From a virus, in the IMG/VR virus record IMGVR_UViG_3300020477_000013, positions 62,001 through 126,000 of that record: a DNA stretch of 64,000 bases; one strand, 5' to 3'. Below the pieces are notes generated by a model. The model ran no database searches and had not been told where the DNA came from. It saw only the letters and a program-made list of their open reading frames with translations. Below, piece after piece: positions 16,292 through 55,132 of the stretch (position 1 is its first letter; the number at the start of each line of letters is the position of its first letter). The translations under genes and the position numbers were made by a program.

Positions 16292-16329
16292 CCTGTGGAT
16301 TGATAATTATTTCAAGCCCGGGGTGTACG

Positions 16330-19300
16330 GTGAGTTCAGAATTTGCTAGTCTCATAAGAAAATATATTGCAGAAGCCAATGATTATTCATGGGATGTTTC
16401 TAACCGCAAAAATATGTTGCTAGATCAACCTGGGATGGAGCAGGAAGATAAGGATAACACTGAGGAGTACCTAAAGTCAATGGGCTTGATGGAAAATATC
16501 ATCGCTCTTTACTTAAGGGGTATTTTAAGTGAGAAAGAACTACGCGGCCAAAAGAGCAAGCGTACACTCTACCACATTGGCAAACGACCAGCAGAGCCGA
16601 AGCCTGCTGAGCGCTGGGGTGCAAAAGGTGAGGAGGGCTGGTCTAGAGACTGGATAGAGGGCCCTGTTAAGTCTGGAGTTTTTTTAACACCCAATCCAAC
16701 AGATATTGCCTGGAATCACGGCGTCAGCGGCAATGTGTATGCCTATAAGGTTCCACAATGGGTTATTGAAAAATCAGGAGGTGTGAACCGTTTTGATACA
16801 GGCTCAGAGATCCTCATATCACAAGAGATATGGGAAGAGGCTGGGGATGAGATAGAATTCTTAGGCAAGACTATGGGCAAAGATGAGTTATGGGACTCGG
16901 TTGACTCGTCTTATTACAGCTCGAAGCAAAAGAAGGGTGTACGTGGCGCACACAAGCATGATGACGGTGCATCTAGCATCTCAGGGCTTAGATCAACCAA
17001 CCACCCCGAAGCTGCGATCAAGATGATGTCTCAAGAAGAGATCGAGAAAGCCCTAGCAAAATTTGAAAATGAGTACGCACAGGAGGGCCCTGCGGAGGTG
17101 GTCAAGGGCCCGCGAGATAAAAAAGGGCTCGTCATCCCCTACCTTGGCAAGCAACCAAGGGGTAAAGACAAAGAGCTTATTGATCTTCTCAACAAGTACA
17201 TGAAGGAGTCGGTTGTTCGACAGTATATAAAGGATCTGCTTGTAGAGGTCCCACTTGATGACTTTGAGTATGTTTCCAAAGACCACGACGATGTAATGGT
17301 CCGAGAAGAGGTTGCTGATTATTTCAAAGCGATACCACAGAGTGTCAACATCTACGTCGCACATACAGACGATCTTAGCTGGGCACATAGGCTGCCAAAC
17401 GAAATACAGGGCAAGGTATCCGGATTTAAAAGTCGAGGCCAGGTCACCCTTACTGATATTTCAAACATCGGAGAGCTATATCCTCAGATACAGAGGGCTA
17501 TGCACCCAGAAGGAATCAATCTTCTCTACGTCTACCCTAAATCTTTTGAAGTTCCTGCCGGCGGTGATACATTCATTGCTGATGTCAACCCCCACTATTT
17601 GGCTCACGATCTTCATCACATGCTTGAGAATGCCCCCGGCCGTGAAAGAGGAGAAAAAGACAAATTCACTTCTCTTATAAAAGAGTATCTGATGGAGCTG
17701 GTCTGGCTGTCTCACGGTGGCGGGTCGGTGGAAGCTGAGCAAGTGCGAGATACAATGCGGAGAACCGGCCGGCGTCTTGGGGTTGCAAATACAAACCTCT
17801 TGATGAGTGAACTGTTTCCAGGCATCAAACTACCCAGTGGTGACTTCGATCTATTTGGTGATGTCTTTGCTGACTACCTGAAGAACGATGGAAACTTAGT
17901 CCTCGGCGTTCCAGAGCAGCTCGATTATGATGGCACAGTCATTGAATTGAATCCCGGCTCTAAGCACGATCAACGAGCGCAGCAATACGAAAAGAAATTT
18001 AAAGATCTGTTCAATGCAGTATTGGATCCGCTCAAGGGAAAGGTGGCAATGTTCAACATCTTCGAGGTCGAACACCGCGAAGTAGAGCGTGCAAGGAAAC
18101 AAGCCGAAGAGAAAATGCAAGCTGACCATGGCCAACTCATCGACCACATTAAGTCTATGGGCGGAGAGTTTAAGTACTTCGACGAAAGCCACAGAGAAGA
18201 GGGTGTCGAGGAGTTGATATTTGACACCGGTCTCAAGCCTGAAAAGCCGGTCTATGGGATCGAAGAGTTCACCCAACAATTTCCAGAAGAGGCGGCTGGC
18301 ATTGAGGCTTTGGGCTACAAGATAACGAGTGCCTTTGACGGGTTCGGGGGTAGCTCTGTGGAGATTAGGCTGAAGATGGCAGGCATCAAAGAGAGCGTTT
18401 TAAGAAAATATATAAGGCAACTACTCAAAGAAGACCCCATGGGCTTTGTTCACGACCTAGCAGCCTCGGATAAGTTCGGCGATCAGTTTAGGGGTGGCCA
18501 AGTTGGTAAAGATGCTGGTCGAGATATCAAGCGCGCTTTCAACAAAAACGCAGACCACCAATTTCTCAGCACGCTGGATACAGTTCACTGGTTTTACACT
18601 GTTTACGACTTAGAGCCCTTGGTAGGAAAAGGTAAAGATGAACTTTCTGCAACAATGACGCTCCCCGGAGATAGCTTTGACCCAGCCGGTCTTCCATACG
18701 GGCTATGGATTAAGGGCAGAATAACACTGGCTACTAATGAACAAGATAAGATGTACTCCGGATTTTATGGGGACTATGGCGCCGGCTATGAAGGATCAGA
18801 AGAGGAAGTTGCTCATAGAGACCGGTCTTCTGGCAGAAATAAACGGCCATCTGTATCAAAAGATTACAGTCGATACGGCCAGCTCGAACGCGGAAATGAA
18901 TACATGGAGAAGATGGCAAGAGATGGTATTCCCTATATCTTAGATCAGTCAACATGGAATCCAGGTAAGACCAGGTCTAATAATGAGGCGCTGGTAGATA
19001 ATTGGAGGCCTATAGGGATCATTGTTGCAAAGAACGACGTTATAAAAGCTATTCTCAAAGCAGCCAAGAAACTTGCTGGAGAAGGTGGTACCCCACCGAG
19101 CGGTAATATTGCCAAAGACATTAATTATTTTTCGACTGGTGTGACACAAGAGATCATACTAGCAGCCCTACAGTTGGGCGTTCCGATTTATGACACGAGT
19201 CGAACAAAGCTATGGGGCCCTCCCACACACCAGAGTGGAACACAAAAAGAGCTCCGCCAGTACGTAAGAGGGCAGTTAATTTTAGAAGATCGAATCCTCC

Positions 19301-19644
19301 AAGAAAACGTTTTCAAGAAAGCGATTTCATGGGTAAAAGAAAAAGGGCAAGCAGGTATAGAGGCAACCCGCGAATTTCTCACTGACCTAAAAGAAGAGTT
19401 ATCAGAAACTAGGGAGGGAGCAGCACTTCTTACGAAACTAGCTTCTGGTAAAAATTTGTCGCCAGAAGAAACTGGATTTCTAAAACAGCAAGCTAAAGAT
19501 GTAGCGTCAGGTACAGTCCTACTAGGCTTGTTTGCCCTTCCGGGTGGTGGGTTGGCTACTGCAGCCCTTTTAAAAGTAGCAGGAAAAGTAGGTGTTAACC
19601 TTAAACCTACAGCATTTAGAGGGAATGATGAAACTACTTCATGA
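16330..19644 (+). CDS. Multi-module tagged polyprotein (ART-like, metallopeptidase-like and other modules)
   Basis: A 1104-residue protein in which the tag recurs. It begins MSSEFASLIRKYIAE, with a second tag-like stretch ALYLRGILSE (about 58-68), then ESVVRQYIKDLLVE (293-306), ESVLRKYIRQLLKE (688-701) and KELRQYVRGQLILE (973-986). Each ends in (I/L)-x-E, as T4 prohead protease sites do. Module 1 (LYHIG, then GVFLT and GNVYAYKVP, SEILI) looks ADP-ribosyltransferase-like. Module 2 has AHDLHHMLE, a variant metallopeptidase-type helix, and ends in KMAGIK. Module 3 is homologous to the protein at 24655. Module 4 ends in a helical LPGGG segment. GTG at 16330 is preferred to TTG at 16300 because it puts the tag first. 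The 17.1 kb part has higher G+C than its neighbours. Confidence 0.75.
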   Translation: MSSEFASLIRKYIAEANDYSWDVSNRKNMLLDQPGMEQEDKDNTEEYLKSMGLMENIIALYLRGILSEKELRGQKSKRTLYHIGKRPAEPKPAERWGAKGEEGWSRDWIEGPVKSGVFLTPNPTDIAWNHGVSGNVYAYKVPQWVIEKSGGVNRFDTGSEILISQEIWEEAGDEIEFLGKTMGKDELWDSVDSSYYSSKQKKGVRGAHKHDDGASSISGLRSTNHPEAAIKMMSQEEIEKALAKFENEYAQEGPAEVVKGPRDKKGLVIPYLGKQPRGKDKELIDLLNKYMKESVVRQYIKDLLVEVPLDDFEYVSKDHDDVMVREEVADYFKAIPQSVNIYVAHTDDLSWAHRLPNEIQGKVSGFKSRGQVTLTDISNIGELYPQIQRAMHPEGINLLYVYPKSFEVPAGGDTFIADVNPHYLAHDLHHMLENAPGRERGEKDKFTSLIKEYLMELVWLSHGGGSVEAEQVRDTMRRTGRRLGVANTNLLMSELFPGIKLPSGDFDLFGDVFADYLKNDGNLVLGVPEQLDYDGTVIELNPGSKHDQRAQQYEKKFKDLFNAVLDPLKGKVAMFNIFEVEHREVERARKQAEEKMQADHGQLIDHIKSMGGEFKYFDESHREEGVEELIFDTGLKPEKPVYGIEEFTQQFPEEAAGIEALGYKITSAFDGFGGSSVEIRLKMAGIKESVLRKYIRQLLKEDPMGFVHDLAASDKFGDQFRGGQVGKDAGRDIKRAFNKNADHQFLSTLDTVHWFYTVYDLEPLVGKGKDELSATMTLPGDSFDPAGLPYGLWIKGRITLATNEQDKMYSGFYGDYGAGYEGSEEEVAHRDRSSGRNKRPSVSKDYSRYGQLERGNEYMEKMARDGIPYILDQSTWNPGKTRSNNEALVDNWRPIGIIVAKNDVIKAILKAAKKLAGEGGTPPSGNIAKDINYFSTGVTQEIILAALQLGVPIYDTSRTKLWGPPTHQSGTQKELRQYVRGQLILEDRILQENVFKKAISWVKEKGQAGIEATREFLTDLKEELSETREGAALLTKLASGKNLSPEETGFLKQQAKDVASGTVLLGLFALPGGGLATAALLKVAGKVGVNLKPTAFRGNDETTS
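16498..16533 (+). other. Second tag copy in the polyprotein
   Basis: Encodes IIALYLRGILSE, ending in I-L-S-E, followed by KELRG. It would allow a cut just before the ART-like module. Confidence 0.5.
17200..17247 (+). other. Internal tag between polyprotein modules 1 and 2
   Basis: Encodes MKESVVRQYIKDLLVE. An in-frame ATG starts it, as though a once separate gene had been fused without loss of its first codon. Confidence 0.7.
18391..18432 (+). other. Internal tag between polyprotein modules 2 and 3
   Basis: Encodes ESVLRKYIRQLLKE, directly preceded by KMAGIK. The latter resembles the (K/L)xAGIxK C-terminus of other tagged proteins here, so a C-terminal motif of one module abuts the N-terminal tag of the next. 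Confidence 0.72.
19246..19287 (+). other. Internal tag between polyprotein modules 3 and 4
   Basis: Encodes KELRQYVRGQLILE, followed by DRILQEN. It divides the 24655-like module from the final helical module. Confidence 0.65.
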
Positions 19645-20422
19645 ATACATAAGGTCGACCCTAATGTCTGAGTCTAGGTTTAAGCAGATATTTAAACCCA
19701 AATTCACAGACTTACGGCAATACTTAGCGGGGTCTTCTTTTTTGGATGCTGACCCTGCCGGTGATCTAGATGAAGACACATGGTCGTCTGAGGCCGCCGT
19801 GGTACTTAGGGACGATTTAAATGATTATTTCGATTCAAAATTTGAGTCTGGTTATTTGACAGCAATTGTGAAGGTTGATATGGGATGGACAGACCCCAAA
19901 GCTGGTAAAGACAGTGTTCTTAAGAATGCGACATATTACTTCAAGGGTGGCCTTCATTTCCTAGAGGTTATGTTAGCAGATATTGATGATGGTTCTGTCA
20001 TAAGGGACATGGGACGCCCTGAGCAAAAGGTTTACGAAGTTATTTTACACGAGCTTTTACACATGCAACAGTTTTTAAGGTTTAGCAAGGGAGAACCCAC
20101 TGATAAAAAGTGGGAACACTTCATGAAAGAGTATCGCCGCCGCGGCGGAGCATCAGGTATGGGTTCAGATTATTTCTTTTTTGACGAACCTGGTGCTGCA
20201 TCTGAACTTGAGACATTTTCGTTGCAAATTGCTATTGAGCTTGTGGATGCTATTGGTCAGGAGGCTGCTGTCGCAATATTAGGGCAACAACCTGATTATG
20301 ACATGATAAGAAGAAATTCCGCATCATTTAGAGATATTGAGAAAGCAGGTAATCTCACATCACGCCCCGAATTTAAAGAGCTGGTTAAAAGGGCGAAGCA
20401 ATACGCGAGGCTATCATCATGA
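19628..20422 (+). CDS. Tagged zinc metalloprotease-like protein
   Basis: From ATG 19628 the protein (264 residues) begins MKLLHEYIRSTLMSES, a tag. A longer in-frame reading from 19592 lies inside the polyprotein gene and is rejected. Residues 141-145 are HELLH within VYEVILHELLHMQQFLRF, a canonical HExxH zinc-binding helix, and a downstream acidic helix (EPGAASELETFS, about 185-200) could give the third ligand, as in gluzincins. No signal peptide is present, so it would act inside the host cell, after injection if the tag hypothesis holds. The gene overlaps the polyprotein end by 17 bases and the next gene by 4 (ATGA), so translation is coupled. Confidence 0.68.
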   Translation: MKLLHEYIRSTLMSESRFKQIFKPKFTDLRQYLAGSSFLDADPAGDLDEDTWSSEAAVVLRDDLNDYFDSKFESGYLTAIVKVDMGWTDPKAGKDSVLKNATYYFKGGLHFLEVMLADIDDGSVIRDMGRPEQKVYEVILHELLHMQQFLRFSKGEPTDKKWEHFMKEYRRRGGASGMGSDYFFFDEPGAASELETFSLQIAIELVDAIGQEAAVAILGQQPDYDMIRRNSASFRDIEKAGNLTSRPEFKELVKRAKQYARLSS

Positions 20423-21231
20423 AATTACTACGTGAATACATAAGAACACTGTTAACCGAGCGTAATACGATGAAGCGCCCAACCGTGGGAGCAATTCTAG
20501 ACGCGATAGATGTTGTCCAAGCAGCCGAAGATGAAGAAGCAAAGAAGAAGGCCTTAAAAAAGCTTGAGAAGTCCCTGGGGTGGAAAGTAGCTAAGATGCT
20601 AGCAGGACCATTCGGCGATGCAGTTAGCATTGCAAAAGATGCCGCTGGAGTATATAAGACATTAAAGGATACAAAGAAGGCTCCTGAAAAGATGGATAAC
20701 CCTATCCTGGACTTACTTCAAGTCGATTCAGGTTATAAAAACATGTTAGACGACTCAGTCGAGTTCGAATTTGATAAAGATATGGTAAGTTATTTAAACA
20801 GCTTACCTCGAGAAGCACCACTTCCTGATATGACCGTGGAGCTTGAGAAATGGATACAGAAGAAGTTTAATAGGGGAATTTCTGGTGCTGATGTAACAGA
20901 GGTTATTTTTCGTAAGCATATAGGAAACTTAATTCGAGAAGCGATTGAAAATGAAAGTCAGTTCCGTGAGCTTTTGGAGGCTGGTCATTTTGATCAAGCC
21001 ATAGCCTTGGCAGATTCATTAGGCATCAGTGGAAGAGAACTACCTTGGACTGGTGAGCTCTTAGAAGATTACGTGTATGAGAAACTGAAGAACATTCCAA
21101 TAGATGCGTACGATGATGCCAAATTAGTTTGGCACCAGGCCAAAATTGATGCGCTAAATGTTCTAGATATTAGTCTAGAAGAGTACATGGGGCCTAGTCC
21201 ACTAATGATGTATTACAACTCTAGACGATAG
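20419..21231 (+). CDS. Tagged protein, unknown function
   Basis: A 270-residue protein beginning MKLLREYIRTLLTE, the model tag with its LTE end. Residues about 25-75 form a charged helix followed by a hydrophobic-faced helix (VAKMLAGPFGDAVSIAKDA). A second segment (NPILDLLQVDSGYKNMLDDS, then MVSYLNSLP and VELEKWIQKKF) looks like a compact domain. The C-terminal 80 residues are helical. I recognise no catalytic motif. It is translationally coupled to the metalloprotease gene (ATGA overlap). Confidence 0.55.
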   Translation: MKLLREYIRTLLTERNTMKRPTVGAILDAIDVVQAAEDEEAKKKALKKLEKSLGWKVAKMLAGPFGDAVSIAKDAAGVYKTLKDTKKAPEKMDNPILDLLQVDSGYKNMLDDSVEFEFDKDMVSYLNSLPREAPLPDMTVELEKWIQKKFNRGISGADVTEVIFRKHIGNLIREAIENESQFRELLEAGHFDQAIALADSLGISGRELPWTGELLEDYVYEKLKNIPIDAYDDAKLVWHQAKIDALNVLDISLEEYMGPSPLMMYYNSRR

Positions 21232-22035: not shown

Positions 22036-22382
22036 TGAAAATCACAAAAAGACAACTTAGATCGCTGATTCAGGAAATGGCAGATGCTCCCCTAGAGCCA
22101 CCTGCGCAGAACCCAAACGTTCAAATTATCTTAGATCAAATGGAAGAGATGTCAATAGCCGATATTCGAGTCATATGGCAAGCCGCTGCCGATACAACCA
22201 AGCGAAAGCGAAATGAATTAAAGGCCGGTTTCAAAAAAGGTGACCGGGTCCAATGGACTCGTAAGAACGGCTCGCAAGGAGTGGGGACTGTTGTTCGCCG
22301 CGGAGGAAAGTACGTCATGGTTCAACCTGACGGTGATAATCGAACATGGAAAAAATGGCCGGATAGTTTGAGTAAGATATAA
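22035..22382 (+). CDS. Small tagged protein with SH3/KOW-like domain
   Basis: 115 residues from ATG 22035 (an upstream in-frame start at 21993 lies inside the previous gene). The tag is MKITKRQLRSLIQE. A helix follows, then FKKGDRVQWTRKNGSQ, GVGTVVRRGGKYVMV and KKWPDSLSKI, the layout of a small barrel that binds protein or nucleic acid (Tudor/KOW-like). Stop and start share one base at both ends. Confidence 0.55.
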   Translation: MKITKRQLRSLIQEMADAPLEPPAQNPNVQIILDQMEEMSIADIRVIWQAAADTTKRKRNELKAGFKKGDRVQWTRKNGSQGVGTVVRRGGKYVMVQPDGDNRTWKKWPDSLSKI

Positions 22383-22789
22383 TGAAACTACTCCGCGAGT
22401 ACATAAGGGTTTTACTCGAGCAGCCCGATATCGGATTGCCTCCGACGCTGTACCATGCGACTTATGGTCCTTTAGTTGACTCGATCATGTCATCTGGCTT
22501 AGGTGGATCCAGAGATACAATGTGGGAAGATTCTGTGAGAGGTACTGTTTATCTTGCACTAAGTGATGACGTTGCTTATAGCTATGCTGAAACTTCCGAC
22601 GACGCATGGGATAAGTTTGAGACTGATGAAGGGCTGGAGATTGTAGTATTCGAAGTTGACACTTCTCAACTTGATCCATCTAAATTTAACATAGATCAGA
22701 ATGTCATAGATAACGAGGGAGACACTTTAGGGTATTATGGTGTCGTACCTCCTTCTGCGCTTAGGATGATCAGTAGAGTGTACGCATGA
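22382..22789 (+). CDS. Tagged ADP-ribosyltransferase-like protein
   Basis: 135 residues: tag MKLLREYIRVLLE, then PTLYHATYGPLVDSIMSSGL, VYLALSDDVAYSYAE, VVFEVDTSQLDPSKF and GYYGVVPPSALRMI. This order (YH-x-T near the start, a hydrophobic VYLA strand with an alternating A-x-x-YA helix, a V-x-VD strand, and a late PP-x-x-L strand) matches the split ART fold shared by Tpt1/KptA and small ART toxins. The catalytic Glu is not obvious. T4 injects an ADP-ribosyltransferase (Alt) by a capsid-targeting tag, a close parallel. Alternative: an inactive or RNA-phosphate-acting relative. Confidence 0.55.
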   Translation: MKLLREYIRVLLEQPDIGLPPTLYHATYGPLVDSIMSSGLGGSRDTMWEDSVRGTVYLALSDDVAYSYAETSDDAWDKFETDEGLEIVVFEVDTSQLDPSKFNIDQNVIDNEGDTLGYYGVVPPSALRMISRVYA

Positions 22790-23604
22790 AACTACTACGT
22801 GAATACATAAGAAGTCTGCTGATTGAGACTGCGATAGGTCAGTGTTATCCGCATGTCGTTAAGATGGCCAAGGGTTCTTCTCAAGAAGAATTCTCAGACC
22901 TAGCCAGATTCAAAGTAGCTCATGGTAGAGTGACAGACAAGTATTCAGGTGAATCAGTTCTACATGCCTGGGTTGAAAAAGGCGATATGGTTTTCGATTG
23001 GCAGACACATTCCACCAAACCTGATGGTATTCCGAAAGATGTCTACTACGACATGTACGCACCAGAAATCCACAACGAATACACAGCCGAAGAGACCATG
23101 GTCAACTGTTTGAAAAGTGGCCAGGCCGGCCCATGGACTTTGAGAGAGTCTACAGGGATAATAGAAGACGGTTGGCCTGGGGTTACATGGAAAGTCCAGA
23201 ATTATGGGAACGGTATCTCCGTTGTCTTAATGATGAGTGGGCAAAAGATGGGAAGCATCATAGCTCGGGAAGTTTCGCGCTGGAAATACTGTGCCGATGA
23301 CGTAGAGAAGTTAAAGGCACAAGGGTATGATTACGAAGACCCACGCTGGCCATCATTAGGACCTAAACTTTTCGCGGTAGGTAATTCTGCAATCGACCAA
23401 GCATTCCGGGGCCAAGGCTGGGGAAAGAAGATGTATAAAGTCCTGATCGACACCATCCGCCAAGAAGCAGGCCGCCGGGGTGCATTTATCGGCGCAGATG
23501 TATGTACAGGCGGATCAACCTCGAAAGGTGCCTTAGGCGTATGGAGATCATTGGCCAGGGACTATCCATCATCCGGTAACGTAGTCTACGTGGGGCCGAA
23601 ATGA
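22786..23604 (+). CDS. Tagged two-domain protein: Cys-His-Asp hydrolase-like plus GNAT acetyltransferase
   Basis: 272 residues: tag MKLLREYIRSLLIE, then GQCYPHVVKMA (C20), HAWVEKGDMVFDWQT (H60, D71) and YDMYAPEIHNEYTAEE. The C-H-D order with a Trp after the His suggests a papain/transglutaminase-like fold. The C-terminal half has FAVGNSAIDQAFRGQGWGKKMY (196-217), the acetyl-CoA-binding R/Q-x2-G-x-G/A loop and helix of GNAT enzymes, followed by typical late GNAT strands. Both could modify host proteins. ATGA overlaps join it to both neighbours. The GNAT call is firmer than the N-terminal call. Confidence 0.62.
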   Translation: MKLLREYIRSLLIETAIGQCYPHVVKMAKGSSQEEFSDLARFKVAHGRVTDKYSGESVLHAWVEKGDMVFDWQTHSTKPDGIPKDVYYDMYAPEIHNEYTAEETMVNCLKSGQAGPWTLRESTGIIEDGWPGVTWKVQNYGNGISVVLMMSGQKMGSIIAREVSRWKYCADDVEKLKAQGYDYEDPRWPSLGPKLFAVGNSAIDQAFRGQGWGKKMYKVLIDTIRQEAGRRGAFIGADVCTGGSTSKGALGVWRSLARDYPSSGNVVYVGPK

Positions 23605-24134
23605 AACTACTCCGCGAGTACATAAGGTCACTACTGAGTGAGAGGATAGCATCCACTTATGGTAAGCAGAGCCAGACGCCTGGCAAGAAGAATGTGTACC
23701 GTGGAATGAAACTTACAATGCCTAGCGCATCCCTGGCATCAGCAATTCGCAAGGGTAAAATTAGTGGAGACGAGCGAGCAAGATTAATCCTCGGACAATT
23801 GCAAAATGAGTCCACAGGTGTTTCATGGTCCGAGACTTTTCATACCGCCGTTAGTTTTGCTGATACATGGAGTGCCTCGAATAGAGGTAAAACGATTCAT
23901 GTAATCCTACAGGCTACTATCGACGACGGGCAGGGCTTTGATCCAATTACTACAGGCCAAGAACCTCGGATGTTCTGGGATGAAAACGAAATAAGGATGG
24001 AGCCTGGAGCAACTATACCAATTACAGCGATATATTTATTCATCAAAGGAAAAGATAAATTCGCACCTCAAAAACTACAGTTTCATATTATTACATTGAA
24101 AGACGAAGAAAATCCACTGATGGTGAAAGCATGA
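23601..24134 (+). CDS. Tagged ADP-ribosyltransferase (R-S-E class, Alt/Mod-like)
   Basis: 177 residues with tag MKLLREYIRSLLSE. The three ART motifs follow in order: VYRGM (R34), TGVSWSETFHTAVSFA (S75/S77), and FWDENEIRMEPGATIPI (E128-x-E130 followed by the P-G-A/T turn). This is the R-S-(Q/E)-x-E signature of arginine-specific mono-ADP-ribosyltransferases. T4 Alt, ModA and ModB belong to this class, and Alt is itself packaged in the head through a capsid-targeting sequence. The natural inference is modification of host targets such as RNA polymerase at the start of infection. It overlaps both neighbours by 4 bases. Confidence 0.75.
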   Translation: MKLLREYIRSLLSERIASTYGKQSQTPGKKNVYRGMKLTMPSASLASAIRKGKISGDERARLILGQLQNESTGVSWSETFHTAVSFADTWSASNRGKTIHVILQATIDDGQGFDPITTGQEPRMFWDENEIRMEPGATIPITAIYLFIKGKDKFAPQKLQFHIITLKDEENPLMVKA

Positions 24135-24655
24135 ACCTATTACGTGAGTACATAAGGGAGTTATTAGGTGAAGGTGTAGAATTCAGGGAGCTTGATTCTC
24201 CCCTGACATATTATCGATCTAGCAATGTAAAGAGACTGGCTTTATGCGATACGTCTGTAGATGAACCTGCCAGCAGGAGTGATCTTTACTTTTCAGAATA
24301 CCAAGAAATGGAATACGTCGGCAGATCTGGTCGAAGATTAAAGAAACCCAGGAAAGGACAGTTGATACCCGGCGTTTCTGATGTCTGCGTTATTGGGTTC
24401 TTGGACTATCACCAGCAAGGCACCACCCGTGATGGTAAGCCAATGTGGTATTTAGACTATATAAAAACTCGTGGAGGCCACGGTGGGCAAAAGGTGGCTA
24501 GCCGTCTAGTAGACGAGTTTTTCAATCGATATGTAACCGATCCAGGTGTACACGTACACTTCGGAAAGATGATGCGTAAGGAGGTTGGCCACCTAAAAGA
24601 TAAGATGGCAAAGAAATACCCTGACAACATCGTCATTGGGGCAAGGAATTACTGA
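24131..24655 (+). CDS. Tagged GNAT-like acetyltransferase
   Basis: 174 residues: tag MNLLREYIRELLGE. Central strands CVIGFLDYHQQG and WYLDYIKTRGGHGGQKVASRLVDEFF (about 86-131) match GNAT motif A, with G-G-H-G-G as the pyrophosphate loop and a long helix after it. HVHFGKMMRKEVGHLKDKMAK follows, as in motif B. The substrate is unknown. It is one of the coupled effector-like genes. Confidence 0.58.
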   Translation: MNLLREYIRELLGEGVEFRELDSPLTYYRSSNVKRLALCDTSVDEPASRSDLYFSEYQEMEYVGRSGRRLKKPRKGQLIPGVSDVCVIGFLDYHQQGTTRDGKPMWYLDYIKTRGGHGGQKVASRLVDEFFNRYVTDPGVHVHFGKMMRKEVGHLKDKMAKKYPDNIVIGARNY

Positions 24656-25473
24656 TGAACCTACTCCGCGAATACATAAGATCACTTCTGGTTGAAGACG
24701 CAGCTAAGCGCAAACAGTTCGCTCAACACCTTATTGATGCAGGTCACTCTGAGGCAAATTTTGACACGCCTGATGTAGTCGGCCACAGTATTGACAAGGT
24801 GAAGAAGCTCGTTAAGACTGCTCTCGATCAAGGCAAGCTTCTCAAAAAGGCTTTCGCCGAAACTGCAGACAGGGCTTTCCTCGATAGCTTAGTCACAGTT
24901 CACTGGTTCAAAACCAGAAAGACGATGGAGGCATTTTTAGAAGGATCATTTAGTCCCAAGGATGAATTATCAGCCACGGCTTACCTACCGGGTGAAATAA
25001 AAGGCGCCGGCAGGTTTGGTGATTATGGAATCCTTATCAAGGGCCATATCACTCTTTTGGCAAACGACATGGATCAACTCTACACAGGGGCTTCCAGCAC
25101 TTACAATGCAGTGTTTCCTGAAAGAAAGAAGCAGTCTGGCATTAACAAGGGTGTCGAGCAGATATATGAACCAAAAGGTTACGAAGACTATAAGATCGTT
25201 GTGCTTGACGAAGAAGATTGGAACCCCTCTATTGGTGGCTTCCGCAGCTCACAGAATAATGAGGCGCTCGTCGACAACTGGTCTCCGATGGCAATTATCG
25301 TCCCTGACTCTTCAAATCAGCCAGGTTACTGGGATGAAGATTTACAAAAGATGGAACCTGCCGGCCCTGATACAGCGGAAGCCGATATCATTTGGAAACC
25401 GCTACTAGACAAGGCCGGCCTGGATATCCCAGTTATGACAACAAGGGAGCTTGTATCGAGAGGCTGGGTATAA
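24655..25473 (+). CDS. Tagged protein homologous to polyprotein module 3
   Basis: 272 residues beginning MNLLREYIRSLLVE. Shared with polyprotein residues about 690-970 are LSTLDTVHWF against LDSLVTVHWF, KDELSAT(M/A)xLPG in both, L(W)IKGxITL, and NNEALVDNW(R/S)P in both. The family is not one I can name. The HWF pair and the late NNEALVDNW with a following IIV strand leave room for a divergent ART fold, which is speculative. It closes the run of overlapping genes; a gap of 128 bases follows. Confidence 0.62.
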   Translation: MNLLREYIRSLLVEDAAKRKQFAQHLIDAGHSEANFDTPDVVGHSIDKVKKLVKTALDQGKLLKKAFAETADRAFLDSLVTVHWFKTRKTMEAFLEGSFSPKDELSATAYLPGEIKGAGRFGDYGILIKGHITLLANDMDQLYTGASSTYNAVFPERKKQSGINKGVEQIYEPKGYEDYKIVVLDEEDWNPSIGGFRSSQNNEALVDNWSPMAIIVPDSSNQPGYWDEDLQKMEPAGPDTAEADIIWKPLLDKAGLDIPVMTTRELVSRGWV

Positions 25474-27016: not shown

Positions 27017-27460
27017 ATGGAACTTCTTCGTGAGTATGTTAGGACATTATTAGAACAACACACCCAATCAGAGGACCCCTCTTCGGCCGAGCCTTTAAAC
27101 GGTGCTGTGACGGTCGCTGGGATCCCTATTAGCGTTGAAATTGCATCTACTCCAAAATTAAGAAAAGCCGGCCTAATGAACCGAGCGCATCTTGAGCGTG
27201 GAATGCTTTTTTGCTTTCCTGATTGCCGCCCTAGATCATTTTGGATGAAAAATACGCATGTGCCACTGTCGATAGCTTATGCAGATGATAACGGCATTAT
27301 AACAAATATAGAAGACATGGATCCGCATAGTCTCACCGGTGTAAAGTCAATAACTCCAGCTACTTATGCTTTGGAGATGGAGCAGGGGTGGTTTGATAAA
27401 AATGGGGTAGTTCCAGGAGACAAGATTGGGGGTCGCAATGTCAGAAAAAGTAAAAGTTAG
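27017..27460 (+). CDS. Tagged DUF192-family protein
   Basis: 147 residues: tag MELLREYVRTLLEQ, a short linker, then a complete DUF192 domain with KAGLMNRAHL, GMLFCFPDCRPRSFWMKNT, PLSIAYADDNG and ALEMEQGWFDKNGVVPGD. DUF192 is a small beta-barrel of uncertain role, found in bacteria, archaea and phages. The bacterial versions usually follow a signal peptide; here the tag replaces it, which suggests a different delivery route. The start of the next gene lies 23 bases inside its end. Confidence 0.75.
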   Translation: MELLREYVRTLLEQHTQSEDPSSAEPLNGAVTVAGIPISVEIASTPKLRKAGLMNRAHLERGMLFCFPDCRPRSFWMKNTHVPLSIAYADDNGIITNIEDMDPHSLTGVKSITPATYALEMEQGWFDKNGVVPGDKIGGRNVRKSKS

Positions 27461-28211
27461 GGGCTATATGAAGCCGGCCGCTAGTTTTCATACGTTGGTA
27501 GAGTGGGATATTGTTGTAGCACAGTTACTAGAGCTTCAGCATGAGGGAATTGACACTCGAGGTGGAATAGTACAAGATCAAAGGTTGATAGATATTTTAA
27601 ATAATTTCTTCGGATATCAGCTTATCGATGAGGTGGCTAGGTGGGATTTACTAACACAAAAAAATGTGCTTGACTTTATCGAGGACTTTGTCAATCATAG
27701 GTTTTGGAGTTTTGAGAGAGAATATTCACATTATTTTCCTGATATTAACAGGCTTAAATTCGCATATTTCTATTCTAGGGGTGACATGGAACCATATGTG
27801 ATGCTTGATGATGAGTATACTATCCAGCTTTATGGTTCCACATATAATCCTAAGCTGTTATGTCACTATACCACCGAAGAGGGTGCAAAGAGACTGTCTG
27901 ATGCAATATCGAGAGGTATAGAATATGACATATCAAGCTTTACAGTGATGGATCGCCCATTTTTTAGGAAAGAGTCGAATGTGCTGGTAACGTTTATAGG
28001 GAATGTTAGAGCAGGATTCAGGAGTGACATTAAATCGATGGCACTTGATACGGGTCGCCGAGCATGCAACATGTATCGACTTGAGTACCCGGGTAGGGAC
28101 ATTAATAATATATGTTATGAACTTGACACGTGCGATTCTGATGTAAGGACTAGCTTGTGGAATGAGTACATTGCTACGCCTATTGAGATAGTAGGAATTT
28201 CGTCGAGGTAG
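27438..28211 (+). CDS. Unknown protein, possibly ART-like
   Basis: From ATG 27438 (preferred over TTG 27426, since GGGGGTC precedes it), 257 residues. The first half is helical. The second half reads LCHYTTEEGAKRLSDAISRG, VLVTFIGNVRAGF, ACNMYRLEYPG and SLWNEYIATPIEIVGI. The order (H-Y-T near the start of a domain, alternating strands, then a Glu before a P-x-E-I-V-G-I strand) recalls small ADP-ribosyltransferases but is not conclusive. It lacks the tag. Otherwise unknown. Confidence 0.45.
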   Translation: MSEKVKVRGYMKPAASFHTLVEWDIVVAQLLELQHEGIDTRGGIVQDQRLIDILNNFFGYQLIDEVARWDLLTQKNVLDFIEDFVNHRFWSFEREYSHYFPDINRLKFAYFYSRGDMEPYVMLDDEYTIQLYGSTYNPKLLCHYTTEEGAKRLSDAISRGIEYDISSFTVMDRPFFRKESNVLVTFIGNVRAGFRSDIKSMALDTGRRACNMYRLEYPGRDINNICYELDTCDSDVRTSLWNEYIATPIEIVGISSR

Positions 28212-30084: not shown

Positions 30085-30740
30085 GCAGGAATAGGTAGGA
30101 TAAAGTTAAATACTGCTAGGTAGTGACATGCACTACCCAGCAATACTAAGATATGCCATATCGAGTGATAATATTTTTTATGGTCATTAATGTAGAAGTA
30201 TACTCCGACCGTGTAGGATATTCCACCCATCAGCATTAACATCAATCCTTCAGGGTGTACGGTCTCTATGAGGGGGCCCACCATGAATAGTCCTATCCAC
30301 CCTAGCAGCAAATAGCTGGCAAGTGAAATAGTTTCTGATACATTGAAGTAGAATATCTTCCACATTACTCCAGATATTGCTAAGAACCAGACGCATGTGA
30401 ATAAGATCATACCCCAATCTTGCTTTAGGGGTATGAGTAGTAGGGGCGAGTACCCACCTGCTATCATGATATAGATGCACGCATGATCTAGTATCCGGAA
30501 TTTTCTTTTGAGCTGTTTCTCCATAGTTCCGTGAAACAAGGCGGATGAGCTCAGGCCAAGGAATGCAGACCCCCCGTACAGTATGACTGCTAATGTTTTC
30601 CAGCCTCCCCCCAATAAGATAGAGTCGGAAATTAAGAAGTATGTCCCCACAGCTATAAAAAATGCACCGCATGCATGTGTCATGCAATTAATCCATTCTT
30701 CTTTTTGTGTCTTGTTTGAGACACAACTGTGAGATTGCAT
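30081..30740 (-). CDS. Haemolysin III / PAQR-family membrane protein
   Basis: A 219-residue membrane protein, one of only two minus-strand genes here. Family motifs: EEWINCMTHACGAFFIAVG at the start, SSALFHG with KFRILDHACIYIMIAGGYSP in the middle, and HSIWHILVLLGSACHYLAV at the end. The Ser-x3-H, Asp and H-x3-H residues form the PAQR zinc site. About seven membrane helices are expected. Bacterial members (YqfA/TrhA) influence membrane lipid state; a phage copy might alter the host membrane during infection. The reverse orientation and lack of a tag suggest a cargo gene. Confidence 0.82.
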   Translation of the reverse strand: MQSHSCVSNKTQKEEWINCMTHACGAFFIAVGTYFLISDSILLGGGWKTLAVILYGGSAFLGLSSSALFHGTMEKQLKRKFRILDHACIYIMIAGGYSPLLLIPLKQDWGMILFTCVWFLAISGVMWKIFYFNVSETISLASYLLLGWIGLFMVGPLIETVHPEGLMLMLMGGISYTVGVYFYINDHKKYYHSIWHILVLLGSACHYLAVFNFILPIPA

Positions 30741-30873
30741 AGTACCCCTTAAGATAAAAACGATATGCCTGTAATTACATATTCTATTCAGGCGGCAAAA
30801 TTCGATATTGGGATATAACTTTTTTATTTTTTTTATTATTGTATGTTATTATGCCGCTAAACCGTGCGGCTGT

Positions 30874-30902
30874 TTGAGTGTATTTGCATTTTTGTGAATA
30901 AT
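30874..30902 (+). promoter_or_regulatory. Sigma70-like promoter
   Basis: TTGAGT (30874-30879), 17-base spacer, AATAAT (30897-30902), 23 bases before the start of the tagged gene at 30925, in the 184-base divergent gap. A small hairpin (GCCGC/GCGGC, 30853-30870) lies just upstream. Confidence 0.45.
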
Positions 30903-31554: not shown

Positions 31555-34500
31555 TTGGGTAAGACACCGAAGAAGTTTGTTGGGATGCATGCTCATGATG
31601 GATTTTCTACGTTCGATGGTTTAGGATATCCACAAGAGCATATAGATTTTGTAAAAAGTAATGATATGGACGCGTGGTGCTTGACAAACCATGGCCATAT
31701 GAATAGTTTTTGCCATGCATATTTGCATGCTGAAAAGTTAAATAAGGCTGGCGGAAATTTTAAGTTTGTCGCAGGTTGTGAGATGTATGTACATCCCGAC
31801 TTAGATGCCTGGCGCTTAGACTATGATATTCGCGCAGCAGCAAAGAAGGGTGACAAGGAGGCGTTGTTTAGGCTTCGCGATGAGAGGGAGAAGCTTATAA
31901 CGCCTATTACGATGAAGGTTGATGCCGATGATGAGACCCTAGATATATCCACCGATGAAGCTAGTCTTACAATCGAGAATGAGGAAGAAACGAAGTCCGG
32001 AAAATTTTACGACCCCATTAAGAGACGCCATCACTTAGTTGTTTTGCCAAAAACCTCCGAAGGCTTAAGGAGGTTATTTCACCTGGTGTCTAGAGGTTAC
32101 CTGGAGGGATTCTATAGGTTTCCACGTATTGACTATAAGATGTTAAAAGAGGCCGCCCAGGGTGGCCACCTGATGGTGTCTACCGCATGTCTAGGTGGGC
32201 CCTTGGCATATGAAGTTTTTCGTCACTTACAAGAGGTTGAGTTTGATTCACTGGATCCTAAGTGGATGGATGATCCGTCACTACAACAAAAGATATTAAA
32301 TGGCGTCTCAAATTCTTATGGTCAGTTGGCCGATGCGGTGGGTAAAGAGAATGTGTATGTTGAACTACAGTTTAATCACCTTGTTGCCCAACATCTAGTC
32401 AATAGGGCTCTCATTCAATTTGCAAATAATGAGGGCATGCAAGATAAGCTTGTAGTTACATGTGATTCTCACTATGCGCATCCTGAACACTGGAAAGAAC
32501 GTGAATTGTATAAAAAGCTGGGGTGGTTAAACTATAGGGAGTTTGATCCGTCAAAACTACCTCAGTCCAAGGAAGAGCTTAAGTGTGAGCTATATCCTAA
32601 AAACGCACAGCAGGTGTGGGAATCTTACATTAATACAACTAAAGAGTATGATTTCTATGACGATGATATAATTTGTGATGCCGTAGAGCGGACATATGAC
32701 ATTGTTCATGACGAAATTGGAGACATTCATCCAGATAAGTCTATGAAACTCCCAGATTATGTTGTTCCAGCTGGTAAGAGTGATGATAGGGCCCTGTTGG
32801 ATATGTGTAAGGAGGGATTAATTGATAGAGGTTTAGCAGATAAGCCTGAATATATAGACAGGCTAAAGAAAGAACTCTCCGTCATTAGGGAAAAGAAATT
32901 TTCAAAATATTTCTTAACGATGAAAGCTATCATGGATCTTGCCAGAGGTCATATGCTGGTCGGGCCCGGCCGTGGATCAGCTGCCGGCAGTTTGGTAGCA
33001 TATGTTTTATATATCACCAATGTTGACCCGATCGAATATGGGTTACTTTTTGAGCGTTTTCTGAGCGTTCATAGGCAGGGTGCACCTGACATTGATTCCG
33101 ATGTCGGGGATCGTGATAAGCTGATTGATCTGCTTAAAGAAAATTTCGGTGATAATAATATCGTACCAATCTCAAATTATAATACATTTAAACTTAAGTC
33201 ATTAGTCAAAGATATTTCTAGGTTTTACGGAATTCCATTTGATGAAGTCAATAAGGCACTAGCTCCTGTTGAGAATGACGTTAAGAAAGCTGTCTTTAAG
33301 AAAGGGACAGACAAGAACCTCTTTACTCTCTTGTATGAAGATGCAATTAAGTACAGCAAGTCATTCCAGGATTTTATTGAGAAATATCCAGAGATTGCAG
33401 AACCTATTGAGGTGCTATTTAAGCAAAATAAAGCCCTAGGCAGGCATGCAGGAGGAGTAATAGTCTCAGAAAATGTAGCTGAGCAGATGCCCTTGATCAT
33501 GGCTCGTGGCGAAATTCAGACACCCTGGGTAGAGGGTATGCACTACAAGCACCTCGAGGAGCTAGGATGGATTAAATTTGACCTCCTCGGCCTTGAGACG
33601 TTGCGCATCATTGAGAGATGCATAGCATTGATTCTACAGCGCCACGAGGGCCATGAATCACCCTCCTACTTGAATGTCAAAGAGTGGTTTAACGATCATA
33701 TGGATCCGAAGGTGATTGATTTTGATGACCAGCAGGTTTATGAGAAAATCTACCACGCTGCAAGATGGGCAGGTATTTTCCAGTGTACCGCAAGGGGAGC
33801 ACAAAATTTCTTTAAGAAAGGAAAGCCCTGTAGCATTATTGACATTGCAACGCTTACATCAATTTACAGGCCCGGGCCTCTTACCGCCGGCGTGCATGAC
33901 ATATATTTAGGTGCAAAATCTAATCCAGATGATGTCGACTATAAACACCCTCTTATTAAGCAGGTGCTTGAGCCTACATACGGTGCCATTATTTTTCAAG
34001 AGCAAGTTATGGAGCTATGTAATGTAGTAGCCGGATTCCCTCAAGAGGACTGTGACATGGTTCGCCGCACAATCATGAAAAGATCAGCATCAAAAGCTGA
34101 TGCCATGAAAAAGCAGGCCATGGAACTTAAGCAGAGGTTTGTTGATGGTGCAGTTTCAAACGGCGTTCCTTCACATGTTGCAGATGAGCTATATGACAAG
34201 ATCATGTTTTTCTCAGGATATGGCTTCAATAAGTCTCATGCTGTTTCATATGCGATTGACTCCTATTATTGTGCATGGCTTATGACGTACTATGAAGAGG
34301 AGTGGCTGTGCGCTTATTTGGAGGCAATGTCTAATAATCCCACGAAGCGTGCAAAGGCATTTAGCGAGATAAAGAAATTAGGATATAAGGTCGTACCTAT
34401 CGATATCAATTATGCTACTAAGAGCTGGACTATTCTGGAAGGCAAAAAATTTATGCCCTCGTTTTTATCTTGCAAGGGCGTCGGCGAGGCAGCTATTGAC

Positions 34501-35154
34501 GAGATTATTGAGGAACGCCCTTACAAGCAGGTGGATGATCTGTTATGGAATGATGTGGGAAAGTGGAAGCACTCTAAATTTAATAAGAGAGCACTTCAAA
34601 ATTTAATCAAGGTTCGTGCCTTTGGCTCTATGGATCTCGTTGGTGAAGGAAAGACTTTTTCTTCTTATTCACAAATGCATGAAATTTTAATAGAGAATAA
34701 TTCGTCTATTAAAAAATGGACAAAGCGAGATCCTGATAGGGGTAGAAATGCATTTCGAGAATGCCTAATAGAGACTGCTGGTATGCAAGAATGGTCCAAG
34801 ATGACGTTAGCAACCCACAGCGTTGATATAATGGGATCTTTCAATGCAGGTATGGTAGTTTCAGATGAGCTTCAAGACAAGTTGTCGGCTCGAGGTATTA
34901 ATTCCATCGATGAAATAGAGGGTAGGGATCTCTACTGGTTCGTCGTGACTGACATGAAGACAAAACTAACAAAACATAAAAAGCCTTATTTGCTTCTAAC
35001 AGTTACAGGTATTTCAGGAGGTAATTACAGGCTTTTTTGTTGGGGATGGAATGGAAAGCTTGAAATTCCCCAATACTCCCTGTGTGTAGCTGAAGTCGAT
35101 AAAAATGACTTTGGGTGTTCAACGCAACAAAGAAAGATAAAAGTTTTGAACTGA
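31555..35154 (+). CDS. dnaE: Family C DNA polymerase, DnaE-like (Pol III alpha)
   Basis: 1199 residues. An N-terminal PHP domain (GMHAHDGFSTFDG, CLTNHGHM, FVAGCEMYV) is followed by the family C core: VGPGRGSAAGSLVAYVL, then PDIDSDVGDRDK with the metal Asp residues, GRHAGGVIVSE, GWIKFDLLGLETL, YRPGPL and AIIFQEQVMEL with VRRTIMKRS. Helix-hairpin-helix and OB-like segments follow (FLSCKGVGEAAIDEII). The first start used is TTG after GCGAGGG; the ATG at 31585 would cut the PHP motif. It is probably the main replicase, an unusual choice beside otherwise T4-like fork proteins. No clamp or clamp-loader gene is in this window. Confidence 0.88.
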   Translation: MGKTPKKFVGMHAHDGFSTFDGLGYPQEHIDFVKSNDMDAWCLTNHGHMNSFCHAYLHAEKLNKAGGNFKFVAGCEMYVHPDLDAWRLDYDIRAAAKKGDKEALFRLRDEREKLITPITMKVDADDETLDISTDEASLTIENEEETKSGKFYDPIKRRHHLVVLPKTSEGLRRLFHLVSRGYLEGFYRFPRIDYKMLKEAAQGGHLMVSTACLGGPLAYEVFRHLQEVEFDSLDPKWMDDPSLQQKILNGVSNSYGQLADAVGKENVYVELQFNHLVAQHLVNRALIQFANNEGMQDKLVVTCDSHYAHPEHWKERELYKKLGWLNYREFDPSKLPQSKEELKCELYPKNAQQVWESYINTTKEYDFYDDDIICDAVERTYDIVHDEIGDIHPDKSMKLPDYVVPAGKSDDRALLDMCKEGLIDRGLADKPEYIDRLKKELSVIREKKFSKYFLTMKAIMDLARGHMLVGPGRGSAAGSLVAYVLYITNVDPIEYGLLFERFLSVHRQGAPDIDSDVGDRDKLIDLLKENFGDNNIVPISNYNTFKLKSLVKDISRFYGIPFDEVNKALAPVENDVKKAVFKKGTDKNLFTLLYEDAIKYSKSFQDFIEKYPEIAEPIEVLFKQNKALGRHAGGVIVSENVAEQMPLIMARGEIQTPWVEGMHYKHLEELGWIKFDLLGLETLRIIERCIALILQRHEGHESPSYLNVKEWFNDHMDPKVIDFDDQQVYEKIYHAARWAGIFQCTARGAQNFFKKGKPCSIIDIATLTSIYRPGPLTAGVHDIYLGAKSNPDDVDYKHPLIKQVLEPTYGAIIFQEQVMELCNVVAGFPQEDCDMVRRTIMKRSASKADAMKKQAMELKQRFVDGAVSNGVPSHVADELYDKIMFFSGYGFNKSHAVSYAIDSYYCAWLMTYYEEEWLCAYLEAMSNNPTKRAKAFSEIKKLGYKVVPIDINYATKSWTILEGKKFMPSFLSCKGVGEAAIDEIIEERPYKQVDDLLWNDVGKWKHSKFNKRALQNLIKVRAFGSMDLVGEGKTFSSYSQMHEILIENNSSIKKWTKRDPDRGRNAFRECLIETAGMQEWSKMTLATHSVDIMGSFNAGMVVSDELQDKLSARGINSIDEIEGRDLYWFVVTDMKTKLTKHKKPYLLLTVTGISGGNYRLFCWGWNGKLEIPQYSLCVAEVDKNDFGCSTQQRKIKVLN

Positions 35155-45038: not shown

Positions 45039-46295
45039 ATGTCTAGGAATTTTGAGAGAATTATTCGTAAAATTCTCACTGAAGATGAACTAACGAGTCT
45101 GTCTCTACAAGAGGGAAAAATGTATTTTCTCTTAAATGAGGCACTCGACCAAAGCGATATAGAGGAACTTCGAGCTTCGCTCGATGAAACCGAAGATTCC
45201 CTAAGTGCACTAGATACCGCATATGGGGGCGCTGGAATAAAGATAAGTGATATTCCTGGAGCAGGAGAATACGCAAAATCTTTAGCAGGTGCAGTAGGAA
45301 AGGCAAGGGGTATTGTTGCAAAGTTAGACCTTGAGGATCCCAAGTGGTCCGACCTTATACGGAAGACGTTCGGCCAGGGAGCTGATGCAAACGGTGTGGC
45401 ACGTGCCGTAACAGCTATTCAGGCAAAGGCAAGTGAATTTCACTCTGCAGTCACGACTGCGCTTGATAAGGTAGTCGCAAATTTAGAGCCAGTGTTTAAA
45501 GATGACAAAGAGCTGTGGGACCAGCCCCTGAATCAGGTCCTGGGTACTCAAGAGAACATGCCGTCTATAGAGGATTTTAAAGATGGTATCTCTAAAGCTA
45601 TCGGCAAAGGCGGCCCGAAGAAAGGTGCCATGGCGAAGCTCGGAGGGTGGGTTTCCGGAGTTTTCAAGAGGGGTGACCCTGTTCTAGATAAGATCACAGG
45701 TGACTTGCCTGATGAGCTAGACCTAAGCGGCATGGCAGATTATATTCTTTCACAGCCTCTCTCAGCCCTTAAGGGAGCTGCTGAGTCGGGGGTTTCGGAT
45801 GATGCCCCACCTCCTCTACCACAAGATGTTATCTCAGACGTTACAGATGCACCTGAAGAAAGTGGCACCGGTGAAGAGGGTGAAGAGGGTGAGAAGGGTG
45901 AGAAGGGTGAAGAGGGTGATGATGGTTGGGGATCTCCTGTCGGTGATCTGGACGCGTTACCCGGTTCAGGTAGGCCTAACGATCCTGAGGCTGAGGGCGA
46001 TCCCAATGCACCTGAAGAAGAGCCGGAATCGCAAGATGATGTTAAAGATGCAGAGGGATATGTTATAACTAAGGCAGACCTTAAGGCGATTAAGGGTGCA
46101 ATGGATAAAGCGAAAGGTCAAAAGAAGAGCCAGTCGAAGGCTCTCGGGGGACACTTAAACCAGCTGTTGGGACAAACGTTATTTGCTGAAAATAGGTCTT
46201 ACACCATGGGTGGCGTAAAGAGGGTGTTGTCCGAGCACATAGAGAAACAACAGGCTATGTCACGGTGGTTAAAGATTGCCGGCATTAAAAAGTAG
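45039..46295 (+). CDS. Tagged acidic protein with Gly-Glu-Glu repeats and AGIKK end
   Basis: 418 residues: tag MSRNFERIIRKILTEDE, then helical domains (LDETEDSLSALDT, IQAKASEFHSAVTTAL), a Pro-rich hinge, a collagen-like but acidic (GEE/GEK)n run, and a C-terminal helix with VKRVLSEHIEKQQAMSRWLKIAGIKK. The N-terminal tag and C-terminal AGIKK together occur in several proteins here. No enzyme motif; probably a scaffold, core or internal head protein. Confidence 0.55.
   Translation: MSRNFERIIRKILTEDELTSLSLQEGKMYFLLNEALDQSDIEELRASLDETEDSLSALDTAYGGAGIKISDIPGAGEYAKSLAGAVGKARGIVAKLDLEDPKWSDLIRKTFGQGADANGVARAVTAIQAKASEFHSAVTTALDKVVANLEPVFKDDKELWDQPLNQVLGTQENMPSIEDFKDGISKAIGKGGPKKGAMAKLGGWVSGVFKRGDPVLDKITGDLPDELDLSGMADYILSQPLSALKGAAESGVSDDAPPPLPQDVISDVTDAPEESGTGEEGEEGEKGEKGEEGDDGWGSPVGDLDALPGSGRPNDPEAEGDPNAPEEEPESQDDVKDAEGYVITKADLKAIKGAMDKAKGQKKSQSKALGGHLNQLLGQTLFAENRSYTMGGVKRVLSEHIEKQQAMSRWLKIAGIKK
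45870..45914 (+). repeat. Nine-base in-frame tandem repeat
   Basis: Five copies of GGTGAAGAG or GGTGAGAAG, encoding the Gly-Glu-Glu/Gly-Glu-Lys run of the 45039 protein. Not a CRISPR: units have no spacers. Confidence 0.8.
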
Positions 46296-55074: not shown

Positions 55075-55132
55075 TGCATTTTTTTATGATAGATGGTATA
55101 ATCAATACCTGATTATATAAGGAGCATTGCAC

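Follow-up and report, generated by a model that had tools for sequence, protein, structure and literature searches.

The window, as the whole 64,000-nucleotide stretch of DNA analysed here is called, originates from a large uncultured T4-like phage. Its plus strand, on which the polyprotein and its stand-alone tagged neighbours are located, contains an open frame at 16330-19644 that was confirmed as real. The frame starts with GTG (an alternative TTG lies at 16300) and encodes a polyprotein of 1,104 amino acids, P0001, whose modules are delimited by copies of a short tag of 14-16 residues. The tag follows the consensus M-K/N-LLREYIRxLL-x-E, forms a short amphipathic helix and is common to many separate genes.

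The tagged polyprotein and its neighbours

The chain opens with tag 0 (SSEFASLIRKYIAE|A, residues 2-15, 16333-16374) and a fifth small unit of about 38 residues, mini-module 0 (residues 16-53, 16375-16488), with the C-terminal end EYLKSMGL. Tag 1 (MENIIALYLRGILSE, residues 54-68, 16489-16533) separates this unit from module 1 (residues 69-291, 16534-17202), which is followed by tag 2 (KESVVRQYIKDLLVE, residues 292-306, 17203-17247). In a low-confidence predicted model, the helix of tag 2 stops at E306. Module 2 (residues 307-685, 17248-18384) carries a conserved HDLHH motif and is linked by tag 3 (IKESVLRKYIRQLLKE, residues 686-701, 18385-18432) to module 3 (residues 702-970, 18433-19239). The chain ends with tag 4 (TQKELRQYVRGQLILE, residues 971-986, 19240-19287) and module 4 (residues 987-1104, 19288-19641), an LETM1-related C-terminal domain.

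The tags were scored with a position-weight profile trained on nine stand-alone N-terminal tags from the window. Its top four matches in the polyprotein are tags 3, 2, 1 and 4, at 26.5, 19.7, 15.7 and 13.2 bits, respectively; across 2,000 shuffles of the polyprotein the best score per shuffle had a median of 2.1 and a maximum of 16.1 bits. Tag 0 is weak by profile (just 2.8 bits), and its support comes from a homologue in the related locus L015, MSNELRKYIKAVLE|ANEYNWDMSS. The first-pass annotation had described one frame with a start tag and four internal tags, and this layout is confirmed, by the profile for the internal tags and via the homologue for the start tag. The bare [LI]xE motif occurs 16 times in the polyprotein where 14 are expected. 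Given this lack of enrichment, the motif is meaningful only within a tag.

Downstream, the same tag heads a series of stand-alone genes, many of which overlap their neighbours by 1-4 bases. The first, at 19628-20422 (MKLLHEYIRSTLMSE), has a weak match to SprT-like metalloproteases. It is followed by genes at 20419-21231 (MKLLREYIRTLLTE), 22382-22789 (MKLLREYIRVLLEQ), 22786-23604 (MKLLREYIRSLLIE, weak GNAT match) and 23601-24134 (MKLLREYIRSLLSE, weak match to a phage minor-head family), by a GNAT-like gene at 24131-24655 (MNLLREYIRELLGE|GVEFRELDSPL) and by one at 27017-27460 (MELLREYVRTLLEQ). The gene at 24655-25473 (MNLLREYIRSLLVE|DAAK) is a paralogue of module 3, with 36% identity over the alignment and 39% in the best blastp segment. 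In the sampled loci, the distinct tagged genes number well above a hundred, the survey of the source record having covered about 122 kb of its 201,585 bases. In the window and related loci, [LIV]xE is at the expected place in 121 of 128 N-terminal tags.

Searches of Pfam, PHROGs, NCBIfam and PDB sequences returned no function for modules 1-3, and no peptidase domain was found in the polyprotein by Pfam, PHROG or NCBIfam. Module 4 matches NF040639 partially (E 4.5e-5), far under the family cut-off. In INPHARED, tblastn found no matches to the polyprotein or to module 4, nor any to two tagged genes and a module-3 relative. When the full-length polyprotein was modelled with AF2, modules 1, 2 and 4 were poorly modelled and a fold search of this model is meaningless. 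Module 3 alone gave a confident model (pLDDT 85). No fold is claimed for it, since its best PDB matches are at chance level, with a few ADP-ribosyltransferases at E above 2 and low TM-score.

Tags bound movable modules

In related loci the modules recur in other combinations. Module 1 is found in L008 (4220-5464) at 92% identity, with its own tag at the head and a different module behind it. Module 2, about 80% identical in L008, L009 and L010, stands in the order 2-tag-3 in L008 and in the reversed order 3-tag-2 in L009, while in L010 it is followed by a tag and then another module. L011 was rejected as a relative, its match of 34 residues being due to chance. Homologues of mini-module 0 lie between tags in L015, L019 and L023 (blastp), with similar segments in L018 and L020, and the counterpart of module 4 in L042 is a separate tag-headed gene.

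Module 3 is fused behind other partners, mini-module 0 among them, in L014, L015, L018, L022 and L072, and occurs alone as a tag-headed gene in L016, L020, L021, L023, L024, L026 and L071. In its tree the fused state requires five changes, three of which are forced by well-supported branches; many of the sampled loci are closely related, and such counts are to be read as non-independent events. Other chains in the relatives fuse tRNA nucleotidyltransferase-like or HAD_SAK modules with others. The domains joined in one chain are disparate, with separate counterparts and separate families.

It was thus shown that real, movable modules lie between the tags and have been fused and shuffled. The earlier suggestion of fused former genes is strongly supported, as modules are also found in the relatives as separate tag-headed genes (modules 3 and 4), fused with other partners or in reversed order. 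The polyprotein probably arose through successive in-frame fusions of adjacent tagged genes, with modules being exchanged at the tags.

Junction conservation and proposed processing

A scan of 640 distinct ORFs from the window and related loci gave 28 internal tag hits (27 once one clear false match is removed), compared with 2.8 per shuffle of this set. Although the three final positions of the tag did not contribute to the score, 26 of the 28 have [LIV]xE there. The conservation extends to single module families. In a 22-sequence alignment of module-3 homologues the tag end is [LIV]-x-E in every case, whether fused or not, and its last residue, E15, is invariant despite several unlike tag types. 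Likewise, the tag end ahead of the GNAT-like module is [LIV]xE at all 20 loci, fused and stand-alone alike.

The phage genome also encodes the matching machinery, namely a T4-type S77 prohead protease (G000 30,278-30,880, E 2.9e-27) and a gp23 capsid protein (E 1.1e-65). Judged by the capsid protein, the closest isolates are the Flavobacterium immuto phages and Microcystis phage Mel-JY01. T4 gp21 cleaves after L/I-x-E, and a propeptide of 10 residues is enough for head targeting (PMC9026906). In an alignment of the capsid proteins, VLRE61|A62 stands opposite FLTE65|A66, the known cleavage site of T4. Of 12 records with such loci that were tested, 11 encode S77, and the remaining one is a fragment of 69 kb. 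The first-pass annotation had proposed that one protease could release the modules. The conserved [LI]xE at the junctions, the S77 protease and the conserved capsid site lend this proposal indirect support, and the release itself is a step we infer.

The ORF probably encodes a capsid-targeted cargo polyprotein that is cut by the prohead protease. For its modules we infer core targeting, cleavage, location in the virion and injection. Each module has in front of it the propeptide that the phage also uses on many separate putative cargo genes. If the tag helix acts like the T4 capsid targeting sequence, it would bring the precursor into the core of the prohead, where the S77 protease would cut behind [LI]-x-E at every tag. 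The modules would be freed in the capsid prior to DNA packaging and then be injected with the genome. Cutting at the tags would yield predicted fragments of 6.2, 26.8, 44.8, 31.6 and 12.5 kDa. As bare [LI]xE shows no enrichment in the ORF, accessibility must determine which of these sites get cut.

A rather unlikely alternative is that the tags only anchor: several core-binding helices would pack one large protein more tightly or in a given orientation, and it would be injected whole. Some related proteins indeed end in a tag with almost nothing beyond it (55127-56431 in the window, and at 6774 in L024 and 7363 in L056), as expected of tags that target but do not release. A precedent is the N4 virion RNA polymerase, which is packaged without being cut (PMC5512222). 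Anchoring would not, however, account for an invariant E15 ahead of module 3, nor for L-x-E surviving where the helix has decayed. The latter is seen in L015 (MEALLLE|DPMG) and L018 (AEALLLE|DPMG), in L020 (GLLSE|GVEF) and L023 (DLLNE|SVEF), and in the fused L032 (ASELNE|DEEAR) when compared with the stand-alone L029 (MKKLLESWKKFLEE|DEQAR). Two further polyproteins, in L044 (1,322 aa) and L032, also speak against it. Their module borders carry bare [LI]NE with the helix mostly absent there, 10 times where 1.5 are expected in L044 and 3 times where 0.5 are expected in L032. Two of the L032 modules are adjoining separate genes in L029, and a third is a separate gene in the window (27426-28211). 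The [LI]NE arrangement is not general, because such sites were not found in the 907-aa Flavobacterium immuto relative of the L044 polyprotein.

It appears improbable that translation starts internally at the tags, which would give separate proteins and make the fusion partly a reading artefact. A start codon lies at most six codons upstream of 13 of the 23 internal tags (background 29%), and L008 carries AAGAAGGA ahead of one internal ATG. However, a ribosome-binding match of at least 4 accompanies just 3 of these 23 tags, while 50 of 86 tag-headed genes have one and the background is 5%. No start codon lies near tag 4, and tag 3 has ATC at the position aligned to ATG in the relatives. This codon lies in KMAGIK, which the first-pass annotation had taken for a C-terminal motif standing back to back with the tag. 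The residues are present but unconserved, and the motif was dropped after comparison with L008 and L010. Because the relatives read KKDAMKEN and QKSAMKES at the same place, KMAGIK seems, from its codons, to mark a start codon that was lost (ATG to ATC).

Very improbable, too, is an assembly error or a recent non-functional fusion, in which the tags would be decaying remnants of overlapping genes fused through frameshifts. The 1-4-base overlaps of the stand-alone neighbours mean that single indels could fuse genes, but fusions recur across many independent assemblies and the junction [LI]xE is conserved. Moreover, the 2-tag-3 junction is common to the window and L008 at about 80% identity with silent changes near saturation, tag 3 itself differing by six synonymous and two conservative codon changes. 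That the tags direct proteins to a non-head destination such as a membrane, or to another protease, is hardly credible: the likeness of the tags to T4 propeptides is one of layout rather than alignable sequence, but the T4-type protease and a capsid-protein site with the matching motif are both present, S77 in nearly all tested records.

Returning to cleavage by the prohead protease, a cut only behind the tag would leave the tag on the C-terminus of the preceding module. A possible, though doubtful, refinement is that two cuts by the prohead protease excise the internal tag as a linker, one at xxE|S ahead of the helix and the other at LxE| behind it. Among tag hits scored without those positions, 23 of the 31 that are internal or C-terminal have E-[SNAG] directly ahead of the helix, whereas N-terminal tags that can be compared have it in 2 of 39 cases. 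Helix capping could also explain this pattern. Two of the four internal tags of the polyprotein are flanked on both sides by [LI]xE (positions 55/68 and 688/701). If double cutting holds, each cargo enzyme would be released from the polyprotein free of its tag. An open-ended cargo system would then be available to large T4-type phages, in which a gene landing beside a tag gains both packaging and release.

Relation to known cargo systems

The T4-type capsid targeting sequence (CTS) is an N-terminal propeptide of about 10-19 residues that ends in L/I-x-E. The T4 internal proteins IPI, IPII, IPIII and Alt likewise carry a short N-terminal propeptide with this end (PMC9026906, PMC3012670). T4 and the present phage also have in common the S77 protease (gp21 in T4), a gp23-type capsid and variable effectors that share only the tag. 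In T4, however, each cargo gene has one N-terminal propeptide (Alt is also cut C-terminally), whereas here the tags repeat inside one chain between unrelated modules.

Multiple cuts in one chain have precedents. The T4 core proteins gp67, gp68 and gp22 are each cut by gp21 at several sites (PMC9026906), and in SPN3US gp245 cuts ejection-protein propeptides several times (PMC10052503). These cuts break up scaffold or propeptides, and the separation of folded effector modules is not reported. DarA and DdrB of P1 are head cargo processed during capsid assembly (the N-terminus of DarA by the protease Pro), but no repeated inter-module tag is described for them.

The polyvalent proteins of phages and conjugative elements resemble the tagged polyprotein in combining several unrelated domains per chain and in being predicted to be injected, with processing proposed (Iyer et al. 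2017, PMC5512222). This processing is ascribed to a built-in zincin or a C-terminal assemblin-like peptidase of the same chain, and repeated propeptide borders are not described in the sections consulted. A zincin or other peptidase is their commonest domain (about 36%), without being obligatory.

In the literature searched, mostly outside subscription journals, no tag-delimited phage polyprotein was found. The repeated tags suggest a cargo made as one chain of several proteins and cut apart, of a kind previously undescribed in phages. The arrangement would explain how large phages assemble and trade large sets of injected proteins. It would also provide a sequence rule for spotting many unknown cargo proteins in metagenomes, and a natural design by which one gene packs several proteins into a T4-type capsid. 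T4 capsid-targeting propeptides and polyvalent injected proteins are each already known and are combined here, a repeated, cuttable targeting tag that bounds shuffled modules joining the two halves.

Tags in and around the polyprotein frame

The polyprotein is encoded by a single open frame on the plus strand (16330-19644), with 1,104 residues from a GTG or 1,114 from an alternative TTG at 16300; the complete virus record counts 201,585 bases, of which 62,001-126,000 form the window. The first-pass annotation placed internal tags, short helical propeptide-like segments ending in [LI]-x-E, near residues 60, 293, 688 and 973. A profile built exclusively from nine stand-alone N-terminal tags agrees, as its four top scores in the frame fall at 688, 293, 55 and 972 (26.5 to 13.2 bits; the best score per shuffle in 2,000 shuffles had a median of 2.1 and a maximum of 16.1). 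The start tag is weak alone and has a better-preserved homologue in the related locus L015.

The frame heads a run of genes with near-identical start tags, MKLLREYIRxLLxE or MNLLREYIRxLLxE (starts at 19628, 20419, 22382, 22786, 23601, 24131, 24655 and 27017). Other small genes, at 21243, 21482, 21769, 22035, 25602, 47447, 49714 and 58452, open with a tag of a second family, MKITKRQLRRIIKEE or a variant of it; Flavobacterium immuto phages carry tags resembling this family (MKKSQLRQIIKEA). Also in the window, the phage gene at 31555-35154 encodes a DNA polymerase III alpha subunit of the bacterial type that includes a PHP domain. Two tagged ORFs (45039-46295 and 49714-51384) are closed by a C-terminal motif, RW.K(L/I)AGI, which may be a second core-targeting signal. 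The scaffold protein of the same phage (33,870-35,663 of the whole record G000; L005:9870-11663) ends in the similar RWAVLAGI, the immuto phage scaffold in RWQKLAGIIK.

The motif at module borders and its putative cleavage

Across 22 homologues of module 3 (residues 702-970), which carry tags of several dissimilar types, 16 positions are invariant; one of them is E15, the final residue of the tag, and L or I stands two positions earlier. A GNAT-like module is directly preceded by [LIV]xE in 20/20 loci, fused or alone. Across the window and related loci, with the last three tag positions left out of the scoring, [LIV]xE is present in 26 of 28 internal tag matches (2.8 internal matches in shuffled sequences of this set) and in 121 of 128 N-terminal tags; of the two internal exceptions, one is plainly spurious and the other carries ILVE four positions further on. 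The triplet is kept even at fused junctions with a degenerate helix (MEALLLE/DPMG, AEALLLE/DPMG, GLLSE/GVEF, DLLNE/SVEF and ASELNE/DEEAR; slash, predicted cut). Borders in two further polyproteins carry [LI]NE: ten observed versus 1.5 expected in a 1,322-residue ORF on a viral contig (L044:3273-7241, reached via module 4), where the sites lie between NMNAT-like, LETM1-related, HAD-like and other modules, and three versus 0.5 in L032, reached via module 3. The bare [LI]xE triplet shows no enrichment over the polyprotein frame (16 observed, 14 expected), so its count by itself is no proof. At the borders it is the predicted cut motif that is conserved.

The genome encodes an S77 prohead protease of the T4 gp21 type (E 2.9e-27) and a capsid protein of the gp23 type (E 1.1e-65), whose VLRE61/A62 aligns with the T4 gp23 cleavage site after E65 (FLTE/A). 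S77 is encoded in 11 of the 12 tested records with related loci, the twelfth being a 69-kb fragment. In T4, gp21 cleaves after L/I-x-E, ten residues are enough for head targeting of a protein, and internal proteins are injected from the head (PMC9026906). By analogy, we infer that the tags would target the polyprotein into the prohead core, where the S77 protease would cut after [LI]-x-E and release modules for injection.

The main rival is that tags anchor the cargo without cutting, because some proteins end in a tag. Tags or tag-like helices are found at C-termini in the window (55127-56431, 58787-59413) and in related loci (L024:6774-7295, L056:7363-7899), for example NESLLRNYVREFMGGLM and MKESLLREYIRGLLEV; the L024 protein ends after its tag, and its homologue L018:6771-7802 continues into a further module. 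Anchoring leaves the survival of L-x-E beyond the helix unexplained. Internal translation initiation at the tags is disfavoured: of the 23 internal tags, 13 still have a start codon nearby but only three have a ribosome-binding match, which 50 of 86 tag-headed genes possess.

Cleavage at tags might also be double. E-[SNAG] stands just before the helix in 23/31 internal tags (a count that takes in C-terminal copies and one false match) versus 2/39 N-terminal tags with room for it, and [LI]xE flanks both sides of two of the four internal tags in the polyprotein. This element could mark a second cut excising the tag, or it could be a helix cap.

Separate, fused and reordered modules

That the frame consists of fused former genes, as originally proposed, was confirmed by comparison with relatives, where the modules occur separately, with other partners and in reversed order. 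In L008, a 284-kb relative, module 1 carries a tag of its own and is followed in its gene by a different module; modules 2 and 3, separated by the same tag, make up a 678-residue gene that stops directly behind module 3 (KLWSPK). The order is module 3, tag, module 2 in L009, while L010 has module 2, tag and another module. Module 3 occurs at 26 loci among viral contigs, alone behind a tag (L016, L020, L021, L023, L024, L026) or joined to various partners (L014, L015, L018, L022, L032). On bacterial-genome contigs it is found alone (L071) or fused to another module without known function (L072), and in the window a tag-headed paralogue follows 5 kb downstream of the polyprotein frame (24655-25473). 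Five switches between the fused and the separate state are required on the module 3 tree, and supported branches force at least three of them. L032 joins three modules in one chain; two are adjacent overlapping genes in L029 and the third is a separate window gene (27426-28211). An assembly error is disfavoured, since fusions recur across independent assemblies and tag 3 differs from L008 by six synonymous and two conservative codon changes.

Module content and known systems

The AF2 model of module 3 (22-sequence input) is confident (pLDDT 85, pTM 0.83), with the tag as a lower-confidence terminal helix ending at the motif; a fold search with it gave no confident PDB match. The full-length polyprotein is poorly modelled except for module 3. 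Module 4 (residues 987-1104) partially matches a LETM1-related family. Among related tagged proteins, matches to GNAT and SprT-like domains are weak; HAD_SAK and tRNA nucleotidyltransferase domains are clear-cut. Tags join tRNA nucleotidyltransferase/poly(A) polymerase-like and HAD_SAK RNA-repair modules to other modules (L018:8735-10423, L018:5293-6786, L023:3776-4954), which suggests RNA-repair enzymes as possible head cargo.

The first-pass annotation knew of no phage internal-protein polyprotein with this arrangement, and our search of the accessible literature found no paper with repeated targeting propeptides as module borders; such borders are likewise absent from the parts consulted of the accounts of T4 internal proteins and polyvalent proteins. 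In layout the polyprotein resembles the polyvalent proteins (PMC5512222), and in its mode of working it may be likened to the T4 internal proteins with their capsid targeting sequences.
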